Virus record (IMG/VR): IMGVR_UViG_3300021511_000011 | Location: 1 to 46,936 of that record | Source: a virus | Reading direction: 5' to 3' (one strand) | Length of the DNA stretch: 46,936 nt | Shown: in pieces, positions 448 through 46,806 of the stretch | Numbering within the stretch: the first letter of the stretch is position 1 | How the letters are laid out: every line of letters begins with the position of its first letter | Translations under genes and position numbers: made by a program | Notes under the pieces: generated by a model | Told to the model about the DNA's origin: nothing | Seen by the model: the letters and a program-made list of their open reading frames with translations, nothing else | Databases searched by the model: none

Positions 448-460
448 TCAAACCAGTATC

Positions 461-477
461 GTTTCGTTTAACGAAAC
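461..477. promoter_or_regulatory. Dispersed palindrome, site 1
   Basis: A perfect GTTTCGTTTAACGAAAC lies between the first and second early genes: eight-base arms around one central T. It is one of nine copies in the window. Here the flanks are CAGTATC on the left and CATCCAG on the right. The site is about 300 bases downstream of the early promoter, so it is a candidate stoperator or parS-like site rather than a promoter operator. Confidence 0.75.
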
Positions 478-500
478 CATCCAGAAGGGAAGGAGGGATT

Positions 501-4078: not shown

Positions 4079-4483
4079 ATGGGAAACTTTTCAGATAAAT
4101 CTTATCAGGACCTAAAGGATCAGTTAGCTCCGGATTCTTCCCCTATTGAATGGGAAAGGCCCAGACTGGCCTGGTCTAAAGAGGTCTTCAATAGACATAG
4201 ACATGTTTTCTGTTCATTCTATAAAAACTGTATGAACTATGCAGCAGGATTACACTGGAAAGGCTGGTCTTGTAACTGGTGCAAGCACAATCCCCACCGC
4301 TTTAAGGAGACAAATTGGAGGGAAGAGAAGCGGAAAACAAAGATGATAAAAAAACTTCGAAAAAGGATTATTAAGGATTTACCTAAAACTAAACTACCCC
4401 CCAAGAAAAAACTCGAAGAAAAAACAATCAAGGTCTTACTAAGAACCTTAAAAGATTTGGAGAAGAAATCTCGTGAAACTTAA
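4079..4483 (+). CDS. Cys-rich, probably zinc-binding protein
   Basis: A 134-residue protein. The central block has C-x6-C (CSFYKNC, about residues 45-51) then CNWCKHNPH (about 65-73), with conserved-looking Trp residues (LHWKGWSC). This fits a small zinc finger seen in other phage proteins where a C...A..W.G..C..C pattern recurs. The C-terminal half is Lys-rich and helical, suited to nucleic-acid contact. The SD is weak. It overlaps the nuclease gene by 11 bases. Confidence 0.65.
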   Translation: MGNFSDKSYQDLKDQLAPDSSPIEWERPRLAWSKEVFNRHRHVFCSFYKNCMNYAAGLHWKGWSCNWCKHNPHRFKETNWREEKRKTKMIKKLRKRIIKDLPKTKLPPKKKLEEKTIKVLLRTLKDLEKKSRET

Positions 4484-5639
4484 ACCTATTGACTTACCTA
4501 AATCCTATGGACAAATCTCCGAACGGGAACTTCGGGCCGAAGGCCCTCCCAAGAAATGGGATAATACTCTTCGAACAACATATAAACAGTGTGCAAGAAA
4601 ATTCTATTGGTGGAAGATTAGAAAAGTAGATTATTTAGTCAAGCCTTCCTATTTCTCTTGGGGAACAGCTTGGCATGAGATCAAAGGTTATTGGCTCACC
4701 TCGAAAGGAATCAAGGCCGAAATCTATTCTCCTCAATGGAAAGAAGATGCTACTATGGCTTTAATGGTAGGGCTAAATAGCTGGGATAATTCTGGAGGAG
4801 TGGATAATAACCTCGACACAAGAGAGAATCTTTCCCGACTATGGAAGACTACTTTAAAATCTTACCCCTCCGAACCCTACGAGGTTATTAAAGGAGGGGC
4901 GGAAGTTGGCTGGTTATGGCCCCTGCCCCAAAAGGGTGGACAGACTTCCTCTTATTACCTTGGTGGTTCTATGGATGCAATAATCTACTGGGAAGAGTTC
5001 GGTTATCTCCCCCTTGAAATAAAGACTACAGGAATGTGGTTATCAGATTGGTATCTTCTCCAATGGAGTTTTAGTTCCCAGATTACTCAATATATCTGGT
5101 ACGTAACTCAACTCCTCGGAACAGAAAAGACCTACGGGGCCTATTTAGACATCACCACCAAGCAAAATACTCACAGGGCTAAAGCCTCAACTACTCCTCA
5201 ATTTGCCCGTCCAATGCAGACCAGATCTGAAGACCAACTAAAAGAATTCGAAAATGATTGGAGAGGAGATATAGAGCTAATCGAAAAATCCTATGATAAA
5301 TGGCACTTTCCCAAGACGGTTGACACTGTCAACTGTACCGGTGGAGTAGGAAAGAGTAGGTGTCCCTACTCAGGTCTCTGCCTAAGTGGAATTCGAAAAG
5401 GTCTTGTCGATCCTATGGCTTTTCCAAATCTGACCTACAGGTCTCATGAATGGAAACCTTGGGAGAGGAGTAGAGGAGAGAGGAAAAGAGGAGTCCTCAC
5501 CGCCTTTCCAACAAGCGGAGAAATGGGGGTGGATAAATCTCAAGGGATTAATAAAGATCTATTAAAAAGACTTACCTGGCGAAATAAGGTCATCTTCAAA
5601 GGGGAAGAGATAAATCCCAAATCTACATCATTACGTTAA
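4473..5639 (+). CDS. RecB/Cas4-like PD-(D/E)XK nuclease with Fe-S cluster cysteines
   Basis: A 388-residue protein started at GTG behind GGAGAAG. The nuclease core is visible: H68 (GTAWHEIKG), D168 (GGSMDAI) and LEIKTT with E182 and K184, followed by QITQY. Cysteines 40, 288, 297 and 303 match the one-plus-three arrangement that binds a 4Fe-4S cluster in AddB and Cas4-type nucleases (CTGGVGKSRCPYSGLC). It is likely a DNA exonuclease that makes 3' ends for single-strand annealing, together with the Sak4-like ATPase and SSB-like protein just downstream. The last codons and the stop lie in dispersed palindrome site 2. Confidence 0.85.
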   Translation: MKLKPIDLPKSYGQISERELRAEGPPKKWDNTLRTTYKQCARKFYWWKIRKVDYLVKPSYFSWGTAWHEIKGYWLTSKGIKAEIYSPQWKEDATMALMVGLNSWDNSGGVDNNLDTRENLSRLWKTTLKSYPSEPYEVIKGGAEVGWLWPLPQKGGQTSSYYLGGSMDAIIYWEEFGYLPLEIKTTGMWLSDWYLLQWSFSSQITQYIWYVTQLLGTEKTYGAYLDITTKQNTHRAKASTTPQFARPMQTRSEDQLKEFENDWRGDIELIEKSYDKWHFPKTVDTVNCTGGVGKSRCPYSGLCLSGIRKGLVDPMAFPNLTYRSHEWKPWERSRGERKRGVLTAFPTSGEMGVDKSQGINKDLLKRLTWRNKVIFKGEEINPKSTSLR

Positions 5640-5646
5640 ACGAAAC
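5630..5646. promoter_or_regulatory. Dispersed palindrome, site 2
   Basis: ATTACGTTAAACGAAAC keeps the right arm perfectly and the left arm with mismatches. The right flank GATCGAG extends the symmetry. It overlaps the stop codon of the nuclease gene and precedes the SD of the next gene by about 15 bases. Confidence 0.7.
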
Positions 5647-5672
5647 GATCGAGAAAGGAAAGGAGAGAGACT

Positions 5673-8364: not shown

Positions 8365-8591
8365 AAAAACCAAGAGAAAAGTATCTTCATGATCCAAGTT
8401 ATAGACTGTTAGTTGATGTATTAATAAATGAGATTATAAAATATAACTATACTCCTTCCGAACTAAGAGAAGCATCATTATTAGCTTCTATACTATATGA
8501 AGAAAAATATTCAAGATATGGATATGTCTTCACCAAAACCCACAACTCCCCCAAAAAGAAGAGGAATAAATGGCGGAACTTAAAGAAGTAG
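8361..8591 (+). CDS. Small hypothetical protein
   Basis: A 76-residue protein with a GTG start overlapping the preceding stop (GTGA). It contains a helical stretch (YRLLVDVLINEIIKYNYTPS, then ELREASLLASILYEEKY) and a basic tail. No family is recognised. Its tail overlaps the start of the ParB-methyltransferase gene, so it may be translated as part of the same unit. Confidence 0.6.
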   Translation: MKKPREKYLHDPSYRLLVDVLINEIIKYNYTPSELREASLLASILYEEKYSRYGYVFTKTHNSPKKKRNKWRNLKK

Positions 8592-10270
8592 GAACGTACT
8601 TAGAGACTAAGGAAACAGTTTATGCCCTTCTCCCTGCAGACATTGTGGTTAGAGAAGATAGGCATAGACAAAAGTTTAACCGTAAACCCCTTGATGCTTT
8701 AATTGACTCTATGAGAGAGGTTGGACAACTACAACCGGGTATCTGTCATAAGAATGGGGCTGAAGAGATTGAACTAATAATTGGAGAGAGAAGACTTCGC
8801 TGTTGTACATTCTTAGGCTTAGAGTTTCAATTCCTCCTTAAGGAAAATATTAAAGATCCATTAATCCTTGAACAGATGCAACTTGATGAGAACCTTGTTC
8901 GTGAAGACTTAGCCTGGCAGGAGGAGGTCCTGGCAAAGGCCAGACTTCACACCATCCTAACCGAGAGATACGGAGCAACAAAGCCTGGAGTTAAGGGAGG
9001 ACATGGATTAAAAGATACAGCTGAATATCTTGGATCTAAACTCACCTCTCTTCATGAAGATGTAACCTTAGCCTCTTTCCTCCAAGTCCCCGAAGTAATG
9101 GCTTGTTTAAATAAGACTACAGCTAAAAAGGTAGCCAAAAGACTAATCCAACAGGTCAAACGAGAAGAATCTCTTCAAGAAGCTTTAGGATCAATCAAGG
9201 AAAAAGAAGTAACCCTCTCCGAACAAGAGAGATCGGAGTTAAAGCTTAAAGCCCTCGAAAAGCAAAATGAATTAGTCGCTAAGGGTATGGGAGTAGCCGA
9301 AGCGAAAATAGAAGCCAGAGAAGTAATGGAGAAAGAGAAAGCAAATCTTAAGAAGGAAAAAGAAATCTCTCCCACTGAACAAAGACTTGTTTACTTCTCC
9401 AAGCGAGCAATTCTGGGTTCAATGGAAGAAAAGCTTGCTTCCTTCCCAGACAACCACTTTGATCTTATCTGTTTCGATCCTCCTTGGGGAGTTGAGTTTG
9501 ATTCTGTCCGAAAACCTTCTCCAGGAACTAAGGAATATGAGGACTCATGGGAAAGGTTTTGGGCTGGTCTTAAAAACTGGCTTACCTTCATCTATTCTAA
9601 GATGAAAGAAGATTCTCATCTTTACATGTTTTTTGGAATAGTTGCTCATGGTTTTGTCTATGACACTCTCGAAGCTGTAGGTTTCTCTACTAATCGTATG
9701 CCTTTAATCTGGCACAAGATGGGAGCTCACGTAACCAGAAATCCTACCATATGGCCAGGAAGGTCTTACGAACCTATAGCTTATGCCAGAAAGGGGAAGA
9801 AACCCCTCGTTAAGATGGGAGCACCAGATGTAATCTCAACCCCTCAACCTACCCCGTCTATCAAAGATATTCATCCCTCGGCTAAACATCCTCAAATCTA
9901 TAGAGAGCTGATCTCTCGCTCCGCCTCTCCTGGAGAGGTTATCCTCGACCCTATGGCTGGTTCTGGTATGTTCGGAGTAGCAGCAGAGTCCTTAGAAAAG
10001 ACCCATGCCCTCAATTGGTATATGATAGAGAAGGATTCAGATTACCGAAACCTCCAACTCCTAAACCTAAACAAGGGTTATGATGAAATTATTGGAGAAA
10101 AGGAAAGGGTAGAAATAGAGATAAAAGGGAAGGAAGGAAGGGATAAATATAAACCTCCTACAAGTTTTAAGGGTTTGACTCCAGGAACACCTGAATGGGG
10201 AGAATACTTTAAAAATAATCCCGAAGAACAAGATGCTATGCTTGCTTGGCGGATGGAACTGAAGAAATAA
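8570..10270 (+). CDS. ParB-like / DNA methyltransferase fusion
   Basis: A 566-residue protein. Residues 20-125 carry ParB signatures: GERRLRCC (72-79; compare GERRxRA) and ENLVREDLAWQEE (107-119; compare ENLQREDL). Residues 145-172 (GLKDTAEYLGSKLTSLHEDV) look like the ParB/KorB helix-turn-helix. A charged coiled-coil linker (200-265) follows. The C-terminal half is a beta-class amino-methyltransferase: DPPW (303-306) precedes the AdoMet site DPMAGSG (460-466). It probably methylates adenine or cytosine-N4 in DNA. The HTH suggests it could also recognise a palindrome, and the nine dispersed palindromes are candidates. Start ATG at 8570. Confidence 0.85.
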   Translation: MAELKEVGTYLETKETVYALLPADIVVREDRHRQKFNRKPLDALIDSMREVGQLQPGICHKNGAEEIELIIGERRLRCCTFLGLEFQFLLKENIKDPLILEQMQLDENLVREDLAWQEEVLAKARLHTILTERYGATKPGVKGGHGLKDTAEYLGSKLTSLHEDVTLASFLQVPEVMACLNKTTAKKVAKRLIQQVKREESLQEALGSIKEKEVTLSEQERSELKLKALEKQNELVAKGMGVAEAKIEAREVMEKEKANLKKEKEISPTEQRLVYFSKRAILGSMEEKLASFPDNHFDLICFDPPWGVEFDSVRKPSPGTKEYEDSWERFWAGLKNWLTFIYSKMKEDSHLYMFFGIVAHGFVYDTLEAVGFSTNRMPLIWHKMGAHVTRNPTIWPGRSYEPIAYARKGKKPLVKMGAPDVISTPQPTPSIKDIHPSAKHPQIYRELISRSASPGEVILDPMAGSGMFGVAAESLEKTHALNWYMIEKDSDYRNLQLLNLNKGYDEIIGEKERVEIEIKGKEGRDKYKPPTSFKGLTPGTPEWGEYFKNNPEEQDAMLAWRMELKK

Positions 10271-10288: not shown

Positions 10289-10948
10289 ATGATCTTAGTA
10301 AAACCAAGTCATAAGATTTTAACCTATACACCACTGGCATTACAGACAATAGAATTTGCTGGGAGGACTTGTTATAAATCAGAAGATAAGATCACAGAAG
10401 ATTCTGCAGAAAAATTCGTGAAGATGATAACAGGAAAGGGCCACCATTCTGTAATTGAACATGCCGTTGTAACAGTGAAGATTATCTGTGATCGTGGTGT
10501 GTCTCATGAAATTGTTCGCCATCGTCTTGCCAGCTATTCCCAAGAAAGTACTCGCTACTGCAATTATAAAGGTGGAGTTACGTTTGTTATTCCTCCTTGG
10601 ACTGATTTTAACGAAGGTGAGTATTCTTCGGAATCTGAAAATTACTGGACAGTGAAACCAGATGCTATGTCTGAAGCACAGTGGCTCTGGTGGTGTGCTT
10701 GTATGGACGCAGAGGAAAAATATATATATTTATTGAATTGCGGCTGGTCTCCTCAACAAGCTCGTTCAGTTTTGCCTAACTCCACAAAGACAGAAATAGT
10801 AATTACAGCCAATATTCGAGAATGGAGACATATCTTTACTCTCCGCTGTAACAAGGCTTCTCATCCACAGATGAATGAGGTTATGCGTCCACTTCATCAG
10901 GAGATGAAAAGGCTAATTCCAATAATTTTTGATGCTATAGTTTATTAA
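10289..10948 (+). CDS. thyX: FAD-dependent thymidylate synthase ThyX
   Basis: A 219-residue protein carrying the full ThyX signature RHRxxSxxxxSxR at residues 77-89 (RHRLASYSQESTR), with GHHSVIEH upstream and the typical late block RSVLPNSTKTEIVITANIREWRH. It converts dUMP to dTMP using methylenetetrahydrofolate, FAD and NADPH. Length is normal for the family. In a phage it raises dTTP supply for replication. It lies next to a polymerase carrying a uracil-glycosylase-like domain. The SD is AGGGGG. Confidence 0.95.
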   Translation: MILVKPSHKILTYTPLALQTIEFAGRTCYKSEDKITEDSAEKFVKMITGKGHHSVIEHAVVTVKIICDRGVSHEIVRHRLASYSQESTRYCNYKGGVTFVIPPWTDFNEGEYSSESENYWTVKPDAMSEAQWLWWCACMDAEEKYIYLLNCGWSPQQARSVLPNSTKTEIVITANIREWRHIFTLRCNKASHPQMNEVMRPLHQEMKRLIPIIFDAIVY

Positions 10949-10959
10949 AAAGAGGAAAG

Positions 10960-10972
10960 GAGGTAAAACCTC
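10960..10972 (+). promoter_or_regulatory. SD-occluding mini-hairpin abutting a start codon
   Basis: GAGGT-AAA-ACCTC is a perfect 5-bp hairpin. Its 5' arm is part of the SD (AAGGAGGT) and its last base touches the ATG at 10973. Folding would hide the SD. The same arrangement occurs on the other strand at 22681, 35262 and 40005. Confidence 0.65.
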
Positions 10973-11221
10973 ATGATCCCATACGAAGAGAATATACTTC
11001 ATATACTTAAAAAGAGTAAAGTTACCTTCATGTCTGAAATTTCTGATTGGAATCCTGATGGTATAACTGAGGAAGAAGCAAAGGTAATAGCTCAGAGACA
11101 TAGTCTCACCTTAGAAATTCTTGAATCTTCTTTTCTCCCTACTCTTCGTGTTTTCAGATTTGAGATAAACCCTAATCTCGATGATTCCGTTAAACGAAAC
11201 GATCAAGAAGGGAAAGGGTAA
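10973..11221 (+). CDS. Hypothetical protein
   Basis: An 82-residue protein preceded by the SD-occluding hairpin. It shows a helix (EENILHILKKSKVTFMSEI) and a short segment ITEEEAKVIAQRHSLTLEILE. No family is recognised. Its last codons (DDSVKRNDQEGKG) are dictated by dispersed palindrome site 3. Confidence 0.6.
   Translation: MIPYEENILHILKKSKVTFMSEISDWNPDGITEEEAKVIAQRHSLTLEILESSFLPTLRVFRFEINPNLDDSVKRNDQEGKG
11184..11200. promoter_or_regulatory. Dispersed palindrome, site 3
   Basis: ATTCCGTTAAACGAAAC has flanks CTCGATG and GATCAAG. It lies in the last codons of the 82-residue gene, about 80 bases before the polymerase gene. The right half is identical to sites 2 and 8. Confidence 0.75.
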
Positions 11222-11227
11222 AAGATT

Positions 11228-11284
11228 ATGATTAAACTTGATAAAGAGAGAGTAGAGGGAATAGATGAAACGATTAACTACTAA
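11228..11284 (+). CDS. Possible 18-residue leader ORF before the polymerase
   Basis: ATG at 11228 behind AGGGAAAGGG opens an 18-codon frame ending inside the polymerase gene, which starts at 11265 in another frame. It could couple or dampen polymerase translation. Support is only an SD and position, so it may be chance. Confidence 0.25.
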   Translation: MIKLDKERVEGIDETINY

Positions 11285-13790
11285 TATAGTTCCTCCAGAT
11301 GGACCAATTAATTCAAAAGCGTTCTTTATAGGAGAAGCTCCTGGAAAGAATGAAAATGCCTTAGTCCGTCCCTTTGTAGGAAAAGCCGGACAATTTATGA
11401 ATAGAGTTCTGGCTAAGAAAAGGGTGGTTAGGTCTGATTATCTTTTTCATAACATCTTTAACCAGAGGCCTCCAAAGAATCAGCTAAGCTATTTCTATGA
11501 GGATAAGAAGGCAAATCAAAGGACTAAGCCTACTTGGGAGGGCAGGGAACATATAGAAAGGTTTAGAGTTTGGTTAGAAAAGATTTATGAAAGGAAGAAA
11601 AAGACTGGAATTGGACCTAATCTTATTGTAGCCTTAGGGAGACAGGCTATGTTTCACCTCTGTGGGAAGAAGCGAATCTATAAATGGCGAGGGAGTGTTC
11701 TCCCCTGTACCTTAGTTCCAGGGCTGAAGGTTTATCCTATGCTTCATCCAAGTCATGTGATGAGGACTATGCAAGAGGAAAGGGTAAAACTAACCGGGAT
11801 GAAGAAGGAGAGAGCCCAGAACGCCTTACCCTTATTTGAGGTTGATATAGATAGGGTGCAGATACAGATGGAATTTCCAGAGATAAGGTATCCAAAGAGG
11901 AAGTATGATATTTCTTTATCCTTCTGGGAATTAAAGAGTAAATTTGAAGAGATTCTTGAAGATGATTCGGAGAGGATGATCAGTGTAGACATAGAGACCT
12001 TGCAAGGTCATGAAGGACCACTGGTCTGGTATATAGGATTTTCAACAGAACCTAGTTATGCCTTTACAGTTCCACTAATTAAGGTTAGGGGAAAAGCTTT
12101 TGCTTGGTCATTGGATGAAGAAGCAGAACTTTTAAAGCTTATCTCAAAGGTCTTTCTTCACAGGAAAAAACTTAAAATCTTTCAGGGAGGACTCTATGAT
12201 CTTGCTATACTCGGAAGATACTATGGTTTGCGGTGTGCAAAGGGAACCTATGCAGACACAATGTATTGTCATCACGCATCCTATCCTTATCTTTGGAAAA
12301 GTCTCGAAGTACTCGCTTCCATCTATACATGGGAACCTTATTATAAAGACGAGGGTAGGGTATCCTTTGGTAGTCGTACCGATGAAGCTGAGGCCAGATA
12401 TAACTGTAAAGATTGTGCCGTTACCAGAGAAATATATCCTGTTACGGTCGAGAATGCAAGAGAACTTGCCACGTATGACGGATATAGAAGAACTATGTCA
12501 ATTCTTCCGTCCCACTTAGGAATGACTATCCGAGGGATAAAAATAGATCTTGAGGGAAAGGAAAGACTGGGGAAGGATTTTAAAAAGGAAGCCTATAAGG
12601 CTCAAACCTTTGTAGAAGAAAAGATTGGTTATGAGATTAATCTTAATTCAAATAATCAAAAGAACAGGTTGCTCTATGGGTATTTAGGTTTAAAGCTACA
12701 GACGAGTAAGAAAACTGGTAAAGCAACCGCAGATAAGAATGCCCTCAATAAGCTAAGAAGACTTTATAATAAAAAAGAAGAGGGAAAGATTATTCAGGCT
12801 ATGATGGATTATTCTAAGTTTAACAAGTTAGCCAATACCTATACCGATATGAAGTTGGATGTAGATGGAAGGCTAAGGACGAGTTATTCGGTGGTCTCAA
12901 CTTGGAGGATGAGTTCGAGTTCTTCTCCATACGGCGGGTTTAAGAAGGAGGATAGAGAAGGTGGAAATGTACAAAATATTCCTGTAAGGACTAAAGAAGG
13001 GAAGATGGTCAGACGACTCTTTATTCCTGATGAGGGAAAGGTTCTACTCTGCTCGGATAGAAGACAGGCCGAGGCTATGTTTGTTGCTTGGGATGCAAGG
13101 GATATGACCAGGATTAGGATGTATTTAGATGGTTGGGATGTTCACTGGTATAATGCTCGGTTAATCTTTGGAATTCCAGACGGAATTAAATATATACCTA
13201 AAGCCAAATTTAGAAATTCAATTACCAACGAGGAATATACCCTTGAGGTCTATAGATTTATAGGGAAGACGATTGTTCATGCAGGTAACTATGGTATGGG
13301 GCCTTATAAGCTTCAAGAGATTCTGGCCCTCCAAGGTTTTATTCTTGAGTTTAGGGAGTGTAAGGCCTTTCTAGAAACTCATAAAGCAAGAAATCCTTTC
13401 TTAGTCCAGTGGCAAAGAGATATAAGAGAAGAGGTAAGAGCTACACGGACACTCATAAGTCCTATAGGGAGGAAAAGGGAGTTTATGGGAAGGATGAATG
13501 TTAATCTTTACAATGCCGCTTATGCCTTTCGTCCCCAAAACTTTGTAGGAGAACTTACGGAAATTACTATTCAAAAGATTTGGGAGAAACTGGGGGATAA
13601 GTATGAGATCTTGATGAATGTCCATGATGAAGTTATTGGACAGTGTAGAGAAAAGGATATAGAAGAATGTATGGGAAGAATAGAAGAACTTTCCTCTTAT
13701 CCAGTAGAGATTCATGGAAGAGTTTTAGATATTCCTGTAGATTTTAAAGTGGGAGATAATTGGGCAGATGCAGAGGAGGTAAAAAGATGA
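11265..13790 (+). CDS. Uracil-DNA-glycosylase-like / family A DNA polymerase fusion
   Basis: An 841-residue protein. Residues 18-170 resemble family 4/5 uracil-DNA glycosylase (GEAPGKNE 23-30, RPFVGKAG, HPSHVM). The usual VKCRPP Cys is FNQRPP here, so the Fe-S cluster may be absent. Residues 238-400 form the 3'-5' exonuclease: VDIET (D242, E244), YDLAIL (D312) and YNCKDCA (D383). The polymerase follows: motif A CSDRRQAEA (D598, E603), motif B K668...NYG, motif C HDE (787-789). Motif A is unusual, with RRQAE in place of YSQIE. Probably the replicative polymerase. Confidence 0.9.
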   Translation: MKRLTTNIVPPDGPINSKAFFIGEAPGKNENALVRPFVGKAGQFMNRVLAKKRVVRSDYLFHNIFNQRPPKNQLSYFYEDKKANQRTKPTWEGREHIERFRVWLEKIYERKKKTGIGPNLIVALGRQAMFHLCGKKRIYKWRGSVLPCTLVPGLKVYPMLHPSHVMRTMQEERVKLTGMKKERAQNALPLFEVDIDRVQIQMEFPEIRYPKRKYDISLSFWELKSKFEEILEDDSERMISVDIETLQGHEGPLVWYIGFSTEPSYAFTVPLIKVRGKAFAWSLDEEAELLKLISKVFLHRKKLKIFQGGLYDLAILGRYYGLRCAKGTYADTMYCHHASYPYLWKSLEVLASIYTWEPYYKDEGRVSFGSRTDEAEARYNCKDCAVTREIYPVTVENARELATYDGYRRTMSILPSHLGMTIRGIKIDLEGKERLGKDFKKEAYKAQTFVEEKIGYEINLNSNNQKNRLLYGYLGLKLQTSKKTGKATADKNALNKLRRLYNKKEEGKIIQAMMDYSKFNKLANTYTDMKLDVDGRLRTSYSVVSTWRMSSSSSPYGGFKKEDREGGNVQNIPVRTKEGKMVRRLFIPDEGKVLLCSDRRQAEAMFVAWDARDMTRIRMYLDGWDVHWYNARLIFGIPDGIKYIPKAKFRNSITNEEYTLEVYRFIGKTIVHAGNYGMGPYKLQEILALQGFILEFRECKAFLETHKARNPFLVQWQRDIREEVRATRTLISPIGRKREFMGRMNVNLYNAAYAFRPQNFVGELTEITIQKIWEKLGDKYEILMNVHDEVIGQCREKDIEECMGRIEELSSYPVEIHGRVLDIPVDFKVGDNWADAEEVKR

Positions 13791-13808: not shown

Positions 13809-14471
13809 GTGAATAATCCTTACAAGATTTTAGGGCTTGAAGAAGGGGTTTCAGATGAAGAGATTAAAAAGGCTTTTCGGAATTTAGCCAAGGCAAACCA
13901 TCCTGATAAAGGAGGAGATTCTTCTATCTTTGCTAAGATTTCCCGTGCCTTTGCTTTAATCCGAACCCAGGAGAGAAGGGAAAGATTTAAAAAGGATGGA
14001 GGAAAAAGGAAAAAATCTCTCAAGCTTAATGCTATGGAGGTTATATGTGTGAAGTTAATCCAAAGTATAAGAGAGAGTAAGACTCCTAAAGAGTTGAAAT
14101 TTATTCCTTTAATTTATCGAGCTAAAAAATCTTTTCGTATTGATATAAAAGAATTTAAAAAAGAGTTTAAAACTCTTAAAAAGGATATAATTATTTGGGA
14201 AGATCTTATTGATCGCTTTACCTATAAGGGAAAGGAAGAAGAAGAAAACTTTTTAATCTATGCTTTAAATAAAGAAATTGATGCTTTAAGAAAATCGAAA
14301 AATCTTTTAAGAAGACAGATGAAGATAGCATTCAAAGCGATAAAACTCTTAGATGATTATGACTTTAAGAATGAATTAAAGAAAGAGTCGACACATTCTA
14401 CTTTTACTTTTATTAATATTAATATTGGAAATCCTAACACCTCTACATCCTTTTGGGGAAAGGGGGAATAA
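13809..14471 (+). CDS. J-domain (DnaJ-like) protein
   Basis: A 220-residue protein from GTG. Residues 3-60 are a J-domain (NPYKILGLEEGVSDEEIKKA, then NHPDKGG with HPD at 31-33), which stimulates Hsp70/DnaK. There is no G/F or zinc region. The rest is helical and basic, ending in a Thr/Ser/Asn-rich tail. It sits between polymerase and helicase genes, so it may recruit host DnaK to remodel replication proteins, as lambda replication does with host DnaJ/DnaK. The role here is inferred. Confidence 0.8.
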   Translation: MNNPYKILGLEEGVSDEEIKKAFRNLAKANHPDKGGDSSIFAKISRAFALIRTQERRERFKKDGGKRKKSLKLNAMEVICVKLIQSIRESKTPKELKFIPLIYRAKKSFRIDIKEFKKEFKTLKKDIIIWEDLIDRFTYKGKEEEENFLIYALNKEIDALRKSKNLLRRQMKIAFKAIKLLDDYDFKNELKKESTHSTFTFININIGNPNTSTSFWGKGE

Positions 14472-15966: not shown

Positions 15967-18900
15967 TTATTCTGTTCGTATTCTTAAAATGGCTTTGCTA
16001 AATCCTTCCCATTCATCTTCCTTATATCCTCTATAGAAGGATTTTATTTGAAGCCCTCCTGGAATAAGGATCATTGCAGAGTCTAAAACTGCTTTAGCAT
16101 GTCTCGAAGAAACCTCTGGCTGATCAATATTCTTCACTGCTGCTGCCATATGATAAATCGGGGACCAGGAAGGGGGAAGGATAAACTCATTAAAAGCTGA
16201 GGGAAAAGGTCCAAGGGCTACAGATCTTCTTGCTGTAGACTGTCCCCAAATAGGCCTCATCATATGGTAAGCCATAGCTTGAGAGGTAAAAGCAGTAAGG
16301 GCTCTTTCTGCTTTAGCCCCTGCAGCTCCTGTCATTAACCACTTTTCAATCAGGCTTCCGTAATTCATCCACCAGGATTGAAAGACAAATCCAGTTCGAC
16401 CGATTGCTCCATACTTTCTTAAGGCCACAGGAGCCTCTGCAGCTCCATAGAGATACTGTGTATCTGCTATCACATCAGAGACATAGGTAGCCTTAGCCTC
16501 TGCAAACTTTCCCCTATGAAGGAGATCTTCTATCTCAGCGTGTTTCCAAGGGTGGCGTTTAGAGAGTCCCATCTTCTTAGAGAAAAAGCTAACAGAACCC
16601 TTGGTCTCCGGATTGCCAAACTTCTTAACCAGACGCTCCCACTTAATAGTTGCTGCTCCTCCAGTAGTATACCTATTAAATCTATCCGCCCCTTTAAACA
16701 TCCACATACCAGTGTCTCGTAGAGTTTCTATTGTTGGTAATTCCTTTCCAAGAAACCTTTTCCCCTGCTTTAAGATTGAGGGTCGAAGATGAATCTCTGG
16801 AGCATATTCAGCAATGGCCCCGATAGAACGGATATACTCTCTATTCTTTGGATTTAAAGCCCAACGATAGCCCTCTACTAATTTCCCCAGATCCTTCAAT
16901 CCTCCCATATCTGCCGGAACAGTTAGAAGGGGTTGGAACAGATTCCTTACTGCTGAAAACGGTTTAAAGCCCAGTCCGCCAAGATAAGTAAGATTGTTAA
17001 TAGTATAGGAAAGATTGATAACCCTTTGCTCAGACCATAAACCCTCTCCTCCCCATTCTTTCCCAACAGCCTTTCCTAACCTCTGCACTCCTCTCTCTCC
17101 ATATCCATATGTATGAGTAAGGAATTGGGCAAGTTTATAGTCAGAGATTGTAGGGATACTTAGAATCCCCCCTACATAGGCATCAACATATTCTATCCAA
17201 GCCGGTGGCAGCCCTTGAGCATATTCCACAATCTCTCCAAGTTTATCATAGAGGAAATGCTCCTTAGCATGAGCCATTGTTCTTGCTTGAACCATAGTTC
17301 CAAAGTCTACAGGTTCTCCTCTCATCTTTTCAAGCTTTCTAATCTTAGTATAGAAGGCTGATTGTTCTTTAAACATTCCTCCTCGCCATCTCATCAATAA
17401 AGCATCTTCATGTTGAGATACTCGTGCTACATAGTTTTCCAGATATTTCGTAAACCCTCTCCCTGTTTCTCCCCAAGTGAGTCCTTTATTCATAGTCTTT
17501 AAGACTTTCTCTAAGTCCTTTCCTTCAGCCCTAAAATAGGGGTGGGTTTCTCCTTCAAAGATCAATCGTGCTCTCGCTTTCTTAAGAATTTCTTTCGCCC
17601 CTGTAATCTTTTCCACAGGAGTCTTCTGGCTCGCTGTAGAGAATAATCTGTCAATTTCATATTCCAAGCCCTCTGCTCCAGCCATCATGTTATCAATCTG
17701 ATTTTGCCCTAATTCTGTCATTCCACCCTTACGGAAAATACGAGGAATCTGCATTTTCATATGTTCTCCGTAGAGATGATCAGAATAAGCCCTCCAATTC
17801 TCTATTAAAATCTTACTCCTTGGAGAAGCATCTCGAATAAGTTTATTCATCTGAGCCTTCAATTCTTCTCTTTCCGCCTTCCCAGCAATCTTTCCCACTC
17901 CTATAGTCAATTCATCCAAAGCTCTTAAGATTTGATAGGCTTCATCCTGAACCTCGGTGGTAAGCCACTTAGCTTTTTTAGCTACAAATTCTCCAGATTC
18001 TTTAATTACAACTTTAGTAAAAGCTCCACTTTGTTCAAGCATCTTAGTAAAGAGAAGGGAATGATTAAAGTAATTCCTATTCATTCGACCTAAAGCTCCC
18101 TTGAGAGGTGTGTAAATATTATCAAGAGTTCCCAGAAATCTTTCCCCATAACCAAAGACTATCCTTGCCGGTTTCAGCGTAGCCATCAGTGTTGGCCTTG
18201 CTATTTGCCAAGTAACTGCTTTATTTTCAAGCATGTCAAGAAGGATATTATTCATCTGATGAGGAGTTACATCTCCAAAGGAAGTCGGAGCCTTCTCCCC
18301 AAAGAGCCTTTTTGCATGAGCATCAAAAATATGTTTAGTAGTTCTCTTTGTAGGTTTAGCTTTATAAACATCTTCAGCTAAAACCCTTTCAAACTGTTTA
18401 TTATAGTATTTTGCCCTCAATACATCCTCTCCAAAGGCTTCCTTTACTCCCTTCTTCAGAGAGGGTTGAGGATAGAGTCTTCCAGATTTCCACTTAGTTC
18501 CCTTTTGAAAGGCTTTAGTCATATCCTTTCCCTTATACTTCCTATTAAGAACTACATCCATCAACCTCCCCTCATCTTCCCCTGCTAAGACCGAAGCCAC
18601 AGCCTCTGCTTCATCTTTTCCAAAACCCTTTCCTCGAAGTTGTTTTTGAGCATACTCGGTATAGGAAAAAGGTTTCACCTTTCCGCTTTCCTTTCCCAAG
18701 ATCCTTCCAATTCCTTTAATAGCATCTTCAATAGGCAAAACCTTTCCTTCAGCTGCCTTAGCCCCTAATTTTCCTCCCAAAGCCTTTAGCGGTTTCTTAA
18801 CCATGCCTCTAAAGAGATATTTAATATCCTTTGTTATTGGTCCAGCCCAAACCCATAAAGCAGCAAAGAGCTCCTCATGGAGAAGGGCGTTGATCTGATC

Positions 18901-19191
18901 TTGTTTATCCAACTGCATAAAGGCATCTTGAGAACTTTTCCATACAGCCAAGTTGGCAAAAGGGATAAAGTCTGTTAAGGTATGAGCAGCTGCATAGACG
19001 TATGGATGAGATTCGGCCAGGATTTTTTCCTCATCTCTTAGTCTTGGTATTTTCTTCATTGTTCCGTTTAACGAATCAATCGAGTCAACATCAAATAGAG
19101 GGTCGAGAGAAGCAGGGCTTCCATCAAAAGAGGGTTTTGCTGATTCTTTATACTCGTCAACATCACTCAGTGGATCATAAGCTGTGGGCAT
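15967..19191 (-). CDS. Large internal virion / ejection-type protein
   Basis: A 1074-residue protein and the last gene of the late operon. It is largely helical and Ala/Lys-rich after residue 60, with one hydrophobic stretch near the N-terminus (YVYAAAHTLTDFIPFANLAV) and others further on (LFAALWVWAG). I see no lytic transglycosylase or protease motif. Size, position after other internal proteins, and composition match podovirus inner-core proteins that enter the cell with DNA. It could equally be a large polyvalent-type protein. The start has AAGGAGATAGACTT, with a mini-hairpin upstream. Palindrome site 4 lies in its N-terminal codons. Confidence 0.6.
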   Translation of the reverse strand: MPTAYDPLSDVDEYKESAKPSFDGSPASLDPLFDVDSIDSLNGTMKKIPRLRDEEKILAESHPYVYAAAHTLTDFIPFANLAVWKSSQDAFMQLDKQDQINALLHEELFAALWVWAGPITKDIKYLFRGMVKKPLKALGGKLGAKAAEGKVLPIEDAIKGIGRILGKESGKVKPFSYTEYAQKQLRGKGFGKDEAEAVASVLAGEDEGRLMDVVLNRKYKGKDMTKAFQKGTKWKSGRLYPQPSLKKGVKEAFGEDVLRAKYYNKQFERVLAEDVYKAKPTKRTTKHIFDAHAKRLFGEKAPTSFGDVTPHQMNNILLDMLENKAVTWQIARPTLMATLKPARIVFGYGERFLGTLDNIYTPLKGALGRMNRNYFNHSLLFTKMLEQSGAFTKVVIKESGEFVAKKAKWLTTEVQDEAYQILRALDELTIGVGKIAGKAEREELKAQMNKLIRDASPRSKILIENWRAYSDHLYGEHMKMQIPRIFRKGGMTELGQNQIDNMMAGAEGLEYEIDRLFSTASQKTPVEKITGAKEILKKARARLIFEGETHPYFRAEGKDLEKVLKTMNKGLTWGETGRGFTKYLENYVARVSQHEDALLMRWRGGMFKEQSAFYTKIRKLEKMRGEPVDFGTMVQARTMAHAKEHFLYDKLGEIVEYAQGLPPAWIEYVDAYVGGILSIPTISDYKLAQFLTHTYGYGERGVQRLGKAVGKEWGGEGLWSEQRVINLSYTINNLTYLGGLGFKPFSAVRNLFQPLLTVPADMGGLKDLGKLVEGYRWALNPKNREYIRSIGAIAEYAPEIHLRPSILKQGKRFLGKELPTIETLRDTGMWMFKGADRFNRYTTGGAATIKWERLVKKFGNPETKGSVSFFSKKMGLSKRHPWKHAEIEDLLHRGKFAEAKATYVSDVIADTQYLYGAAEAPVALRKYGAIGRTGFVFQSWWMNYGSLIEKWLMTGAAGAKAERALTAFTSQAMAYHMMRPIWGQSTARRSVALGPFPSAFNEFILPPSWSPIYHMAAAVKNIDQPEVSSRHAKAVLDSAMILIPGGLQIKSFYRGYKEDEWEGFSKAILRIRTE
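19061..19077. promoter_or_regulatory. Dispersed palindrome, site 4
   Basis: GTTCCGTTTAACGAATC has the right flank AATCGAG. It is entirely inside the coding region of the 1074-residue protein, encoding DSLNGT on the minus strand. The same S-L-N run is produced by sites 5 and 7. Confidence 0.7.
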
Positions 19192-26055: not shown

Positions 26056-26307
26056 TTATTTAATCATTCCTTCATCTGAAACATCAAGAGTACTTTGCTC
26101 AGGAGCTCTCAAAAGTAACTCTTTCCTCTTCCCTTCAAGATCCTGTGCAATCCCTTGCAGGGCCTGAAGTTTAGAGGTTTGAAAGCTTAATCCTTTGTTA
26201 ATCATCTCACTCACTTTATTAATTTGCTGATAGACTTTATAAAAGGCTTTTTGCTCTTTGGTCAACTTAAACCCCTCTACTGGTTCTCTTGCGATTAAGT
26301 CTGGCAT
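26056..26307 (-). CDS. Small hypothetical protein (head region)
   Basis: An 83-residue, mostly helical protein (FKLTKEQKAFYKVYQQINKV). The SD is GGGAGGG and the start overlaps the upstream gene by 13 bases. No family is recognised. By position it may be a small head-completion or capsid accessory protein. A G/C-rich hairpin (GGGG-tttg-CCCC on the minus strand, 26033-26044) follows its stop. Confidence 0.55.
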   Translation of the reverse strand: MPDLIAREPVEGFKLTKEQKAFYKVYQQINKVSEMINKGLSFQTSKLQALQGIAQDLEGKRKELLLRAPEQSTLDVSDEGMIK

Positions 26308-26870
26308 GACACTACCCTCCCCACCGAAATCTTCTCCGGTACTTGTATAATCTTACAATGAATATTAGCCCAATTATCAATAGCTATATCTTTAAGCTTA
26401 TTTTTAAAATTTTTAGCCCTTCGCCTTCTTTCCTGATTATCCAGTTCATCCAAATATCTAACCAATTCACCTTTCGAAAATCTGGCTGGATCTCCTTTCT
26501 GAAGCCTTAAAAGAATATCAGCTCCGAGTTCCCTATATGTCCTATCCTTAGTCTGAACAGTCAACATATGAAAAGGAGAATCTCCATTCTTTGGAAACCT
26601 CCATATTTCCCATTTCTCACTTCCCCAATCCCAAGCTACTTCAAGTTCTTCATCAAGGACTTTCAACTGTTTAGTAAATCCTTTATCAGGAATCATCAAG
26701 CCTTGCCTAAGGTTTCCAAATTCTTTATACTCCATCCTATTTGGAGCCAGAAACTTAACCTGTTTATTCAGGGGATCATCCTTTAAATTTTTAGCTCTTA
26801 CTCTCTTAGCATCAGCCATTGAGAGATTCAAGCAAACTTTCTTTCTTTTTTGTTCGGGAGTCAACAGCAT
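26295..26870 (-). CDS. Hypothetical late protein
   Basis: A 191-residue protein. GGAGGATAAAG supports the ATG at 26870, so it overlaps the upstream gene by 59 bases. The centre has WDWGSEKWEIWRFPKNGDS, a beta-hairpin rich in Trp, and the C-terminal third is basic and helical (LDELDNQERRRRAKNF). This suggests a small virion or assembly protein, but no family fits. Confidence 0.6.
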   Translation of the reverse strand: MLLTPEQKRKKVCLNLSMADAKRVRAKNLKDDPLNKQVKFLAPNRMEYKEFGNLRQGLMIPDKGFTKQLKVLDEELEVAWDWGSEKWEIWRFPKNGDSPFHMLTVQTKDRTYRELGADILLRLQKGDPARFSKGELVRYLDELDNQERRRRAKNFKNKLKDIAIDNWANIHCKIIQVPEKISVGRVVSCQT

Positions 26871-27747
26871 CTTTATCCTCCATCAGGCTTTGCCCTTTCT
26901 CGATGGTTTCGTTTAACGAAACAATACTGGGTTTAAAATCTTCATCTCTATGTTCCGATTCATTATACTTAACAGTAGAGATTCCAAGAGAATCTCCCTT
27001 CACATAAATTAAGGCTGAGGTGTCTCCATGGGCTATAGCATGTTCAATCCAGCGTTTATAGTTGGTATAGGTCATAGGGGAAAAGGGAGGAGTAGGAATA
27101 TAATCCTCCCACACAGCTTCAAGGAGGTTGAATTTGGCTGAATGGTCAATAGAGTCCCACTTATCTGAGTTTCCGAAATCTCTTTCAAATTCTGTACAAC
27201 CTCTCTTGAGATAAAGTCTTCCCTCTTCTTCACGTTTTAAAATATAGTCCTCAGAAAAATGCTTAATCAAAGTCTCCTTGATTCGCTTATAATGCTTCCT
27301 GGCTTTCTCCAACCCTCCGTAGAAATCACAGTACCAAAAGGCTCGATAACCTCCTAATCCGGAGGTATAATCTCTATTCTCAAGCCCACACTTAGAGGGG
27401 AGGGCCATCTGAGCTTGTACCTTTTGAAGTTCAATGAGCTCGACTACAGTCCTGGGGGCAAAGACAACTTTCCAACATTGTTTACAAGGTGGGGGGAGGA
27501 TGTGAAAGCATTCGAAATAGATCTCTGTCCACTTTCCACATCTACGATCCTTGCATACCTTGGCTAATGTCCAAGGATTACGAAGGTTTAAAGTCCTACG
27601 CATTTTAAACTTTTGAGTTTTTCGATCTACATAAACCGTTCCGGCTTGAACCAAATGCATGATAGGATCGATTACATCTATTCCACAGACAGTTTCATAA
27701 AAACTAGGCTCGGGGGATTTGGGGGATTTGGGGGATTCTTCCTTCAT
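26812..27747 (-). CDS. Hypothetical Cys-rich late protein
   Basis: A 311-residue protein. It begins with a Pro/Ser repeat (SPKSPKSPEPS) encoded by three G-rich units. A block KVCKDRRCGKWTEIYFECFHILPPPCKQCWK carries five Cys and one His, enough for one or two zinc sites. The rest is mixed. It lies right behind the capsid gene and its 3' hairpin. Palindrome site 5 lies in its C-terminal codons. No family is recognised; a virion or maturation role is possible. Confidence 0.6.
   Translation of the reverse strand: MKEESPKSPKSPEPSFYETVCGIDVIDPIMHLVQAGTVYVDRKTQKFKMRRTLNLRNPWTLAKVCKDRRCGKWTEIYFECFHILPPPCKQCWKVVFAPRTVVELIELQKVQAQMALPSKCGLENRDYTSGLGGYRAFWYCDFYGGLEKARKHYKRIKETLIKHFSEDYILKREEEGRLYLKRGCTEFERDFGNSDKWDSIDHSAKFNLLEAVWEDYIPTPPFSPMTYTNYKRWIEHAIAHGDTSALIYVKGDSLGISTVKYNESEHRDEDFKPSIVSLNETIEKGQSLMEDKDAVDSRTKKKESLLESLNG
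26906..26922. promoter_or_regulatory. Dispersed palindrome, site 5
   Basis: A perfect GTTTCGTTTAACGAAAC has the left flank CTCGATG and right flank AATACTGG. It is inside the coding region, encoding SLNET on the minus strand. It lies about 35 bases before the ATG of the next gene (26870) and is the best-conserved copy together with site 1. Confidence 0.75.
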
Positions 27748-32410: not shown

Positions 32411-32672
32411 CGCTCATAACCTCCCCAGCATTGGATATATCGGTTAAGGGGGAACCATTTACCTCTACAGCTACCGAAGTATCTTTCCAGTGTTCGGGAT
32501 TCATAGTAGCATATTGATCCCATTTAGTAGCCATAAATCTGTTCATAAGATCCAAATTCTGTTTCGCTAATCTTTGGATCTCTGCATCTTTCTGAATGAA
32601 GATTCTTTGCACCATCTCCAAAGTTATCTCCAACTTATCTAATCTTTTCCCTACATCTTTTCTAAAGCTCAC
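32382..32672 (-). CDS. Small coiled-coil protein
   Basis: A 96-residue protein from GTG behind GGAGAATAAAG. Residues 5-50 form a heptad-like helix (VGKRLDKLEITLEMVQRIFI, then QKDAEIQRLAKQNLDLMNR). The end is acidic. It lies between holin and portal, so a lysis or head accessory role is possible. Palindrome site 6 is 20 bases upstream of its start. Confidence 0.6.
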   Translation of the reverse strand: MSFRKDVGKRLDKLEITLEMVQRIFIQKDAEIQRLAKQNLDLMNRFMATKWDQYATMNPEHWKDTSVAVEVNGSPLTDISNAGEVMSDEDIGKQSS

Positions 32673-32691
32673 CTTTATTCTCCTCTCGATT

Positions 32692-32708
32692 GTTTCGTTA
32701 AACGAAAT
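32692..32708. promoter_or_regulatory. Dispersed palindrome, site 6
   Basis: GTTTCGTTAAACGAAAT has left flank TCTCGATT and right flank GATCCAG. It sits in the 50-base gap between the holin gene and the coiled-coil gene, upstream of the portal-capsid block. Confidence 0.75.
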
Positions 32709-32722
32709 GATCCAGAAATTCC

Positions 32723-41204: not shown

Positions 41205-41215
41205 AATCCCCCCTT

Positions 41216-41228
41216 GAGGCACAGCCTC
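41216..41228 (-). promoter_or_regulatory. Junction mini-hairpin
   Basis: GAGGC-TGT-GCCTC (minus strand) lies between the TerL stop and the SD of the 117-residue gene. It is perfect with a 3-base loop, and the SD is outside the stem. Confidence 0.6.
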
Positions 41229-41235
41229 TTTAATT

Positions 41236-43065
41236 CTACATCATTTCGTTTAACGAATCCATCGAGTGTCCAAAATTATTTAAGTTATTCCTTTCTTCAA
41301 TCAACCTTTGAGCTGTAGCAAAACATCTTTCCTCAATCGTTTTCGGCTCATCAGAAATAGGAACCGACTTAGGGTCGAAAACCGAAACCGGCAAGCCATC
41401 CTCCCTTTTCTCTACATCTTCTTCATATTCATAACTCGGGGCCAAAACATCTACCTGAATTGCTATTCCCCAAGCAATAACTTCATCATCATTAGTTCCT
41501 GCTTTAGCCTCAGCCTTTCCATGTTTATTCCTAACAAAGGTGGTAAATTCTCGACAGAGCCTCGGATCTCCCCAGCCCCGTTTTTCTAAGAGCCAATCTT
41601 TAATCCCACTTATAAGGGTATTACGGCTTGCCGTCGTCGTTCTCCAACCCTTCTTAAAGGAGACCGAGGCCTTAGCCGAATCATAACTGGGCATCATAAA
41701 AAGATTATCTACATCAAGCATCTCTACACAGAGATCAAAGGTTGCCAATCCTGGTCCATTAGTCTCAATTCCTACCCAAGGGGTGTCGAAGGTACTATAA
41801 TAATCAGCAATAATTTTAATCACCCTTGCTAATTCAACCTCAGAGAGTTGGGAATAGTAGGTAGCATCACAGTCTTTAGTCGTCCTGTTGAGGACTTTTA
41901 TTACACAGTAATCACCACCTTCTACCCCCTCGACCACATCTACTCCCAAGGCATAGAGCGTTTTGTGATCTGGCTCTCTAAAGTTGATTAGGTACCCTCC
42001 AGAGTCTCTTACCTCTGGAACGTCTTCAAGAACTAACTCCCCCAAGTTAAAGTCCTTAAAACTCTGAGGTTTACGTATAATTCTGAGGAGGGTTCCAACT
42101 CGTTTACCAGCCTTACCATCAAAGACCGGATTTCCTGCGCCAATATAATCTATATCTAACTCTTGGGCAACTTCTAAAGCAGACCTTCTTTGACATTCTT
42201 TATCATACCAAGGAGACCGAACAAGACGTTCCAGATCCTCCTCAACAAATCCTTCATCGTCCTTCTTCCTCGGCCAATTACAATAACCTCCTTCAGCCTT
42301 AAGCGGATGAAGTGACCAGTGGAGACGAATTTTATCCTTAGAGGGATCGGTTACTAAATCATAGTGCTGTCCTGCAGCCCCGAAAGGAGTTGAGTTTGGT
42401 ATCCGACAAGGTGTAGCATCACCTGCAGATGTCCACGCAGCTTTATCCGTACCTTCCCATTTAGCAAACTCATCAAACAGAACTGCAGCATATCTTCCAC
42501 CAGTTGAGAAGTTCGCATTATTACTCTCCCCTGTAATCGAACTCCCTGTCTCTGGATTTTGAAGTCTCATAAAATTGTCATGCTTTTTAAAGTTAAATCC
42601 TTTAGGACGAAGAAATTTTGGAAGTTTACGAAGGGCATATCTTGCCTTTTCCATCAAGGTTCTCATATCACCTTTTTTATCCACATAGTCTTCAATACGA
42701 GACCCAAGGAGAAAATCTGTTCCTCCTTCAGGCTTAAGCCAAAACCACACAAAGACCATAATAATCATCCAGGAGGCTCCCATATCTCTACTCTTTTCGA
42801 TAGGGCAATCTTCTCCCTTATTAATATGAGCTACAAGTTTTAATAAGACTTTATCCTGATAGGGATAGGTGCAAAAGGGTTGATGATGGAAAGGCCTTCG
42901 CCTTACATCGAGGGTATAAAAGAAAGCATTAAAGGCAAAGAGAATATCCCTATGAAAGAGCTCTTTAACCTTGGCTTGATAAATAGGATCGAGCTTAGAT
43001 CGGAGAAGAATTTTCCTCCTCCAATTAAGATTTTCTCTATAACCCTTTGGAAAGTCTTTAAACAA
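41236..43065 (-). CDS. terL: Terminase large subunit
   Basis: A 609-residue protein. The ATPase part has a Walker-A-like KSRDMGASW (residues 99-107 counted from the TTG at 43089) and Walker B AAVLFDEFAKWE (201-212 in the same count). The nuclease part has GVDVVEGVEGGDYCVI and a late DDEV (TNDDEVIAWG), as expected for an RNase-H-fold terminase nuclease. It packages DNA through the portal. The start is a TTG: 43065 follows TerS's stop with GAGG at the right distance, while 43089 (617 residues) has a poor SD. Palindrome site 7 is in its last codons. Confidence 0.9.
   Translation of the reverse strand: MFKDFPKGYRENLNWRRKILLRSKLDPIYQAKVKELFHRDILFAFNAFFYTLDVRRRPFHHQPFCTYPYQDKVLLKLVAHINKGEDCPIEKSRDMGASWMIIMVFVWFWLKPEGGTDFLLGSRIEDYVDKKGDMRTLMEKARYALRKLPKFLRPKGFNFKKHDNFMRLQNPETGSSITGESNNANFSTGGRYAAVLFDEFAKWEGTDKAAWTSAGDATPCRIPNSTPFGAAGQHYDLVTDPSKDKIRLHWSLHPLKAEGGYCNWPRKKDDEGFVEEDLERLVRSPWYDKECQRRSALEVAQELDIDYIGAGNPVFDGKAGKRVGTLLRIIRKPQSFKDFNLGELVLEDVPEVRDSGGYLINFREPDHKTLYALGVDVVEGVEGGDYCVIKVLNRTTKDCDATYYSQLSEVELARVIKIIADYYSTFDTPWVGIETNGPGLATFDLCVEMLDVDNLFMMPSYDSAKASVSFKKGWRTTTASRNTLISGIKDWLLEKRGWGDPRLCREFTTFVRNKHGKAEAKAGTNDDEVIAWGIAIQVDVLAPSYEYEEDVEKREDGLPVSVFDPKSVPISDEPKTIEERCFATAQRLIEERNNLNNFGHSMDSLNEMM
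41243..41259. promoter_or_regulatory. Dispersed palindrome, site 7
   Basis: ATTTCGTTTAACGAATC has right flank CATCGAG and left flank ACATC. It is in the last codons of TerL (DSLNEMM), like sites 2, 3 and 5 in other genes, so the site is preserved in coding DNA. Confidence 0.7.
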
Positions 43066-43069
43066 ATCC

Positions 43070-44900: not shown

Positions 44901-44992
44901 GCTCAACCACCCCAATTTCGACCAATAAATATTTATTCTTTTAGTCCAGGTATTCTTTTCCCCCTCAGTCTCCAATCCCTTAATTCTTGATC

Positions 44993-45009
44993 GTTTTGTT
45001 AAACGAAAC
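44993..45009. promoter_or_regulatory. Dispersed palindrome, site 8
   Basis: GTTTTGTTAAACGAAAC has left flank TTGATC and right flank AATGTAG. It lies about 95 bases upstream of the late promoter -35. Site 9 has the same right flank (AATGTAG). Confidence 0.75.
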
Positions 45010-45149
45010 AATGTAGGAGATCTTCCCCTCTCGATGGGTTTATCCACTTGTTACGGCTTCACCATCCTCGTTTTGAAAAGTGAAAAAAGTATACGTGTAA
45101 TCTTGGGGGTTTTGAAGGGGGGTGGAGGTAGTCAATCCCCCCAGCCGGT

Positions 45150-46717: not shown

Positions 46718-46775
46718 CTTTTCCTTTCCTTATCCTCGAACGGGTGATATAGAAAGGGGAAAACAAATCCTCGAT

Positions 46776-46792
46776 CGTTCCGTTAAACAAAA
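46776..46792. promoter_or_regulatory. Dispersed palindrome, site 9
   Basis: GTTCCGTTAAACAAAAC has left flank CTCGATC and right flank AATGTAG. It lies after the terminator and about 15 bases inside the right inverted repeat. The right arm has one mismatch. Confidence 0.65.
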
Positions 46793-46806
46793 CAATGTAG
46801 AATGGC

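Follow-up and report, generated by a model that had tools for sequence, protein, structure and literature searches.

What does a ParB-like protein fused to a DNA methyltransferase do in a virus whose DNA carries nine dispersed palindromes? Both features occur in the window, the whole 46,936-nucleotide stretch analyzed here (IMG/VR virus record IMGVR_UViG_3300021511_000011), and an initial annotation had proposed the fusion as a candidate reader of the palindromes, loading there and methylating DNA nearby. The PHROGs families matching the fusion ORF are ParB-like and DNA methyltransferase (Table 1). PF02195, the ParB-CTPase fold, scored 35.3 bits (cut-off 26.3) over residues 20–101, and N6_N4_Mtase (PF01555) matched residues 298–494 (Pfam, 2.9e-14). 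A profile built from 29 relatives matched Spo0J (1vz0) at 2.6e-20 over profile positions 11–152, which span the NTP fold and the helix-turn-helix (HTH), and Noc at 3.1e-19 over positions 1–170. The AlphaFold2 model (29 sequences; mean pLDDT 83.9) contains HTH helices at residues 147–154 and 158–168, and its Foldseek matches include Noc/ParB structures and the β-class methyltransferases CcrM, MboIIA, and M1.HpyAVI. The ParB boxes and HTH-like stretch noticed in the initial annotation, which had also suggested comparing a predicted structure with ParB, are therefore parts of a full ParB module by Pfam, residue conservation, and profile match. In β-class methyltransferases motif IV lies ahead of motif I. 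The fusion has DPPW at residues 303–306 and DPMAGSG at 460–466, and the earlier assignment holds: by motif order, Pfam match, and predicted fold, this is a β-class methyltransferase domain. It shares its catalytic-domain fold and motif order with the N6-adenine enzymes CcrM and MboIIA, but these are stand-alone proteins, whereas in the window the domain is joined to a ParB module.

Table 1. Domains of the fusion and positions of the palindromic sites in the window
Feature	Coordinates	Strand	Remarks
ParB-HTH-methyltransferase fusion gene	8570..10270	+	complete ORF, 566 aa
ParB_N / ParB-CTPase fold, residues 20-101	8627..8872	+	Pfam 1.2e-8
Box II GERR, residues 72-75	8783-8794	+	inside ParB_N fold
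Box III ENLVRED, residues 107-113	8888-8908	+	after ParB_N fold
Predicted HTH DNA-binding region, residues 120-200	8927..9169	+	AlphaFold2, Spo0J/Noc profile match; tracks site sequence
β-class DNA methyltransferase domain, residues 280-500	9407..10069	+	Pfam 2.9e-14, fold matches
Site 1	454..484		between small ORFs ending 447 / starting 501
Site 2	5623..5653		stop codon of nuclease gene 4473-5639
Site 3	11177..11207		just upstream of DNA polymerase start (11265); corresponding G001 junction has site
Site 4	19054..19084		5' end of ORF 15967-19191(-); corresponding junction in G001
Site 5	26899..26929		junction 26295-26870(-) / 26812-27747(-); corresponding junction in G001
Site 6	32685..32715		between 32382-32672(-) and 32723-33142(-); G001 site adjoins 32382-32672 homologue
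Site 7	41236..41266		junction 40851-41222(-) / terminase 41236-43089(-); corresponding junction in G001
Site 8	44986..45016		intergenic, upstream of 43770-44807(-); G001 sites flank both sides of 45636-46151 homologue
Site 9	46770..46800		intergenic, downstream of 46215-46652(+)

The fusion architecture and its genomic position are shared by Desulfofustis phage LS06-2018-MD01 and Microcystis phage Mel-JY34, in which the gene lies shortly before those for a family A polymerase and a DUF3987 primase. In the window, a ThyX gene (10289–10948) lies directly after the fusion gene and upstream of the polymerase gene (11265–13790), whose product joins a uracil-DNA-glycosylase-like domain (residues 10–173) to a family A polymerase (433–835); a protein with an N-terminal DnaJ domain is encoded between the polymerase and primase genes (13809–14471). 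A single-protein search of viral contigs with the window fusion gave no relative, and a search with a three-sequence alignment gave 216, of which 80 were kept. Twenty-eight long relative contigs were completed or nearly so, all with a polymerase homologue. A family-profile search of species genomes returned only four distant metagenome-bin contigs.

Among 33 fusion family members, G72, R75, E107, N108, R111, and D113 are identical throughout, R74 is kept in 30, and E73 in 23. G72 and R75 are equivalent to G77 and R80 of Bacillus subtilis ParB, which matter for CTP binding, as E78 and E111 do for hydrolysis (PMC8494293). Conservation of these key box residues makes CTP dependence plausible, and variation in Box II (GGRR in five members, GHRR in five) suggests that NTP hydrolysis may differ in those ten; a 2025 PNAS survey describes some bacterial ParB-fold/SAM-methyltransferase fusions that bind ATP and not CTP (PMC12704722). 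The catalytic motif DPP[YWF] is present in 31 of the 33. In the Desulfofustis phage (L013), the methyltransferase (10342–11634) has DFPY in place of DPPY and SPFLGSG in motif I, and nine strong sites are kept; from its sequence this enzyme may be inactive, so catalysis may not be required everywhere.

The palindromes of the window are real: the pattern GTTNCGTTWAACGAAAC, with up to three mismatches, occurs at nine places (18 hits over both strands) against 0.27 hits expected from shuffles, and in a symmetric position weight matrix all nine score 40–45, compared with a top shuffled score of 11.6. The 17-bp cores start at 461, 5630, 11184, 19061, 26906, 32692, 41243, 44993, and 46777, and the full dyad extends to about 31 bp with the consensus CTngATnGTTTCGTTnAACGAAACnATcnAG. 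In a scan of viral contigs for the exact window site, ten contigs each contained a single exact match, probably by chance. Other repeats in the window are a series at 15-nt spacing resembling AGTTGTGATTGTTTC (45157–45231) and two 85-nt repeats about 71% alike (40459–40645). Inverted repeats at gene junctions might be expected of transcription terminators or RNA hairpins. At conserved pairs, however, 164 deviations affected one arm only and 14 both arms, with 6 of those 14 still complementary. Such one-armed, uncompensated changes indicate that sequence is conserved and pairing is not, and the hairpin reading was rejected as extremely improbable.

The initial annotation had also placed GATC beside five palindromes. 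GATC is indeed present at sites 2, 3, 6, 8, and 9, but it lies inside the outer arm of the longer dyad and is no separate flanking element. The window contains 191 GATC sequences against 167 expected, which is not unusual; GATC is missing from the consensus of the Desulfofustis phage sites, and the family as a whole does not conserve the GATC arm. For these reasons GATC was rejected as a methyltransferase target or flank, and coupling of methylation to the sites through GATC is unsupported.

Site families in other genomes were sought with a symmetric-motif script of our own, which uses expectation maximization with a leave-one-out score and a minimum spacing of 400 bp, with order-2 Markov shuffles as the control. 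At a score of at least 40, a cut-off chosen after the scores were seen, a site family was found in 19/33 fusion-bearing phages (scores up to 407) and in 0/14 relatives that lack it, among which the top score was 37 (Fisher p 1.2e-4), a comparison in which the first set was selected by the fusion and the 14 controls are partly a separate lineage. For nine control contigs a profile search confirmed that the fusion is absent; hmmsearch did so for PaP2, Tiera, and vir526, and the subsequent search for the family did so for Kuura and EBPR podovirus 3. The families are private palindromes with 4–16 sites per genome. The Desulfofustis phage, like the window, has nine dispersed palindromes, but of a different sequence (TATGTCCCAAnTTGGGACATA), and the consensus varies from genome to genome: GTAGGAAtTAATgTAcATTAaTTCCTAC in 15 copies in G026, TTGAATAAAnTTTATTCAA in 12–13 in G022, and CCGCnATTAATAATTATTAATnGCGG in 12 in G010, with G014 and G019 having GGTGATTAnnnTAATCACC in common. 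The other 14/33 fusion-bearing phages have weak site families only. Site families are weak in the two cultured relatives, Microcystis phage Mel-JY34 and Vibrio phage VS-ABTNL-3. Some weak families look like those of relatives whose HTH is similar (G013/G021; G016/G017 and G008), and in G002 and G011 the symmetric-motif search gave no convincing family.

Several further genomes were examined. The high motif score of the control PaP2 came from one local cluster and not a dispersed family. Two controls without the fusion, vir526 (L096) and G035, share a lopsided motif with a C/G run, CCCCCCCGTCAGAC, dispersed in several copies each. EBPR podovirus 3 (L172) has five dispersed copies of the asymmetric AGATGCGGCCGCTTGTAT, with a NotI-like core, which are possibly an assembly or cloning artefact. 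The phage ctLwi270 (L099:573–1853) encodes a ParB domain with a methyltransferase of another motif order, apparently an independent fusion, and has 4–5 dispersed palindromes around GCAAAATTTTGC. Prophage-type ParB_N-methyltransferases were rejected as the same system: the two examined, Javan51 and NatCom_19828, are without Box III and the HTH, and no site family was found with either.

The association with the fusion was compared with that of other genes. The fusion-bearing and control groups both contain nuclease, Sak4, polymerase, primase, TerL, and portal families, and the ParB-methyltransferase was found in 30/33 and 0/14, respectively, in a simple gene model. Among widely shared genes, the fusion alone therefore separates the two groups, although its confinement to site-bearing phages is partly circular because the set was picked by the fusion; the comparison nevertheless eliminates the remaining shared genes as explanations. 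Site similarity was correlated more closely with HTH identity (Spearman 0.62) than with identity of the methyltransferase (0.56), polymerase (0.55), or ParB_N (0.48). In partial Mantel tests, the correlation of sites with the HTH was 0.41 given polymerase, primase, nuclease, and Sak4 and 0.37 given the methyltransferase domain (p 0.0005 in both).

The nearest relative found, G001, is 60% identical to the window in the ParB-methyltransferase and 67% in the polymerase. By domain, identity is 77% for the methyltransferase, 54% for the HTH, and 41% for the recognition segment. G001 also has nine sites. Six can be matched clearly to window junctions by their flanking genes (one ahead of the polymerase, three in the late region, one at the terminase, and one beside the homologue of 45636–46151) and the rest are nearby; one of the late-region junctions adjoins the homologue of 32382–32672, another site flanks the 45636–46151 homologue as in the window, and the early-region sites match approximately. 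All sites have switched together from GTTTCGTTnAACGAAAC to GATCCATTnAATGGATC (GTTTCG-TTnAA-CGAAAC to GATCCA-TTnAA-TGGATC). HTH residues 156–158 are SKL in the window and IGK in G001, and by manual alignment these positions correspond to K171, S172, and R173 of Caulobacter ParB, which contact DNA (PMC7383237). Compared with the L014/G001 sites, those of the window have the same outer arms (CTnGATnG) and the same inner TTnAA, and the segment between them is switched; some other part of the fusion protein may read the outer dyad arm.

The relationship was also followed in reverse, from sites to fusion. A scan of viral contigs for G026-type sites led to G039, a 46-kb contig with 13 sites, which carries a fusion of 90% identity with an identical HTH helix. 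The same scan led to G038 (34.5 kb, nine sites), in which the fusion is absent; G038 is a fragment that breaks off inside the gene preceding the expected fusion position. The association, the covariation with the HTH, the concerted switch, the reverse search, and the contrast with prophage-type proteins lacking an HTH support the original proposal, and from these sequence comparisons it is very probable that the ParB-type HTH of the fusion recognizes the nine palindromes of the window.

The palindromes could alternatively be operators or stoperators of another DNA-binding protein, with the ParB-methyltransferase unrelated to them. Many ORFs in the window have no family match, and mycobacteriophage stoperators are likewise numerous and dispersed across a phage genome (PMC9283540); these are, however, asymmetric, bound by a monomeric repressor, and found in temperate phages. 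The sites described here are symmetric, a scan of 22 of these genomes gave no integrase-family match, and the window ORFs scanned gave no credible match of repressor type. With no widely shared gene other than the ParB-methyltransferase restricted to site-bearing phages, and with its HTH covarying with the sites, an unrelated reader is quite improbable, and a stoperator system was rejected.

Another alternative is a local epigenetic switch, in which methylation occurs only at or beside the palindromes and controls binding of the protein itself or nearby genes. The dyad of about 31 bp reaches beyond a parS-like core of 16–17 bp, and the window and G001, with methyltransferases 77% identical, have the same outer arm CTnGATnG while core and HTH differ. 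If the outer arms were the methyltransferase target, this pair would fit, but G010 and G026 do not: their methyltransferase domains are 84% identical and their cores the same, yet their outer arms differ. The outer arms were therefore rejected as the target, and with the arm GATC not conserved in the family, a local switch is rather unlikely.

Placement of the sites bears on what recognition by the fusion would achieve. Across 27 genomes, 158/234 sites fall between genes or no more than 45 nt from a gene edge, against 39.5 expected, and 97/234 are strictly intergenic, against 12.6 expected, counts that rest on a simple, approximate ORF-based gene model. Spacing is more even than chance: its coefficient of variation is about 0.5, whereas gene junctions drawn at random give about 0.9 (Fisher p 7e-17), and in 18/24 genomes the individual test for evenness falls below 0.05. 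In the window, the largest gap between sites is 8.6 kb against 16.8 kb expected. Even placement at junctions suits genome coverage better than control of particular promoters.

This pattern is relevant to KorB of plasmid RK2, a CTP clamp of the ParB family, which is loaded at OB operators and can repress promoters at distances of up to 1.5 kb (PMC11790492). As proposed for the window fusion, KorB loads at operators on a mobile element and acts at a distance; it differs in being a transcriptional regulator with a KorA partner and no methyltransferase. The fusion might similarly load, slide, and regulate transcription or organize the chromosome, with methylation secondary or local. The position of sites at gene junctions would fit such a role, as would the nine strong sites of the Desulfofustis phage despite its altered catalytic motif. 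Operators tied to particular promoters are not expected to be evenly spaced, however; the genes adjacent to sites appear to differ between distant relatives, and the catalytic motif is retained in nearly all members. A KorB-like regulator is thus the less likely reading, though the most credible of the alternatives, and the even spacing itself could instead serve DNA organization or regulation.

ParB folds and palindromic sites are also found in partition systems, and segregation had been one of the roles suggested initially. In a centromere reading, the sites would act as parS and the protein would partition the phage genome as a plasmid. The N15 prophage offers a precedent, since its SopB belongs to the ParB family and has several inverted-repeat sites in the phage genome (PMC7205306), but N15 has four sites, partitions with SopA, and lacks a methyltransferase. 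A ParAB-bearing cyanobacterial record included as a check, Aphanizomenon phage Yong-DA (L239; ON073792.1), has five dispersed TGTTCAGACGTCTGAACA palindromes. Its gene content includes sugar/polysaccharide genes, a replication protein, ParA, and ParB, with no annotated virion genes, and the record looks plasmid-like. In the present phages, AAA_31/ParA (PF13614) was found in 0/22 genomes, with positive controls at 14/14, and gene content looks lytic. The lack of ParA and integrase matches in the 22 genomes argues against partition and lysogeny; a segregation role is disfavored and a centromere very improbable.

The reading preferred here is a self-addressed methyltransferase. Canonical ParB binds parS, closes in a CTP-driven step, and slides along DNA. 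By analogy, the ParB-type HTH of the fusion would bind the parS-like palindromes at gene junctions, about every 5 kb, upon which the NTPase module would close as a clamp, leave the site, and slide along phage DNA, bringing the tethered methyltransferase with it. Evenly spaced loading sites would allow clamps to reach the whole genome and methylate it in cis, favoring phage over host DNA, and the resulting methylation would most likely be a self-mark against restriction. As a whole, this scheme has about an even chance of being correct. NTP-dependent loading and sliding, suggested by the conserved box residues and what is known of the family, is somewhat probable; genome-wide methylation in cis as the purpose, suggested by the spacing and a fused, mostly intact catalytic domain, is the least certain of the steps and at best evenly balanced. 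Canonical ParB dimerizes through its own C-terminal domain. In the fusion, that position is occupied by a helical linker and the methyltransferase, and this replacement counts against the clamp reading, as do the weak site families of 14/33 fusion-bearing phages. DNA marking, as suggested from the outset, is a plausible role for the fusion.

Fusions of this kind are already known. According to the 2025 survey, phage ParB-fold + N6_N4 methyltransferase fusions, with the same PF02195 + PF01555 combination as in the window, are frequent, and an anti-defense role was suggested (PMC12704722). The survey passages retrieved by term search make no mention of DNA sites for them, nor were any found in open-license literature; the sites are newly proposed here. 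The window family has all boxes, an HTH, and candidate cognate sites, in contrast to the prophage-type proteins described above. In its NTP boxes, HTH, and candidate palindromic loading sites it resembles ParB-parS and Noc-NBS, in which specificity is set by few HTH residues (PMC7383237). It is unlike them in that no ParA was found, a methyltransferase replaces the C-terminal dimerization domain, and the sites are up to about 31 bp and spread evenly over the genome. By analogy, KorB and N15 SopB may be regarded as the nearest working systems.

The candidate binding targets proposed here apply to a full-length subfamily of fusions that the survey lists as common but unexplained, and private palindrome families of this kind make fusion function directly testable with short DNAs. 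The naturally matched HTH/site pairs are also a resource for studying how ParB-type DNA specificity changes. That lytic phages evolved a sequence-addressed, sliding methyltransferase, which the evenly spaced sites and matching HTH of each phage would direct to mark that phage's genome alone in cis, is put forward as a tentative proposal that falls short of an even likelihood; discrimination of self from non-self would then derive from loading and not from the methylation motif. If the clamp does carry the methyltransferase, the virus would tell its own DNA from that of the host by where the enzyme loads, not by the sequence that it modifies. Taken together, the dispersed sites and the fusion suggest how a virus might place a chemical mark on its own DNA.
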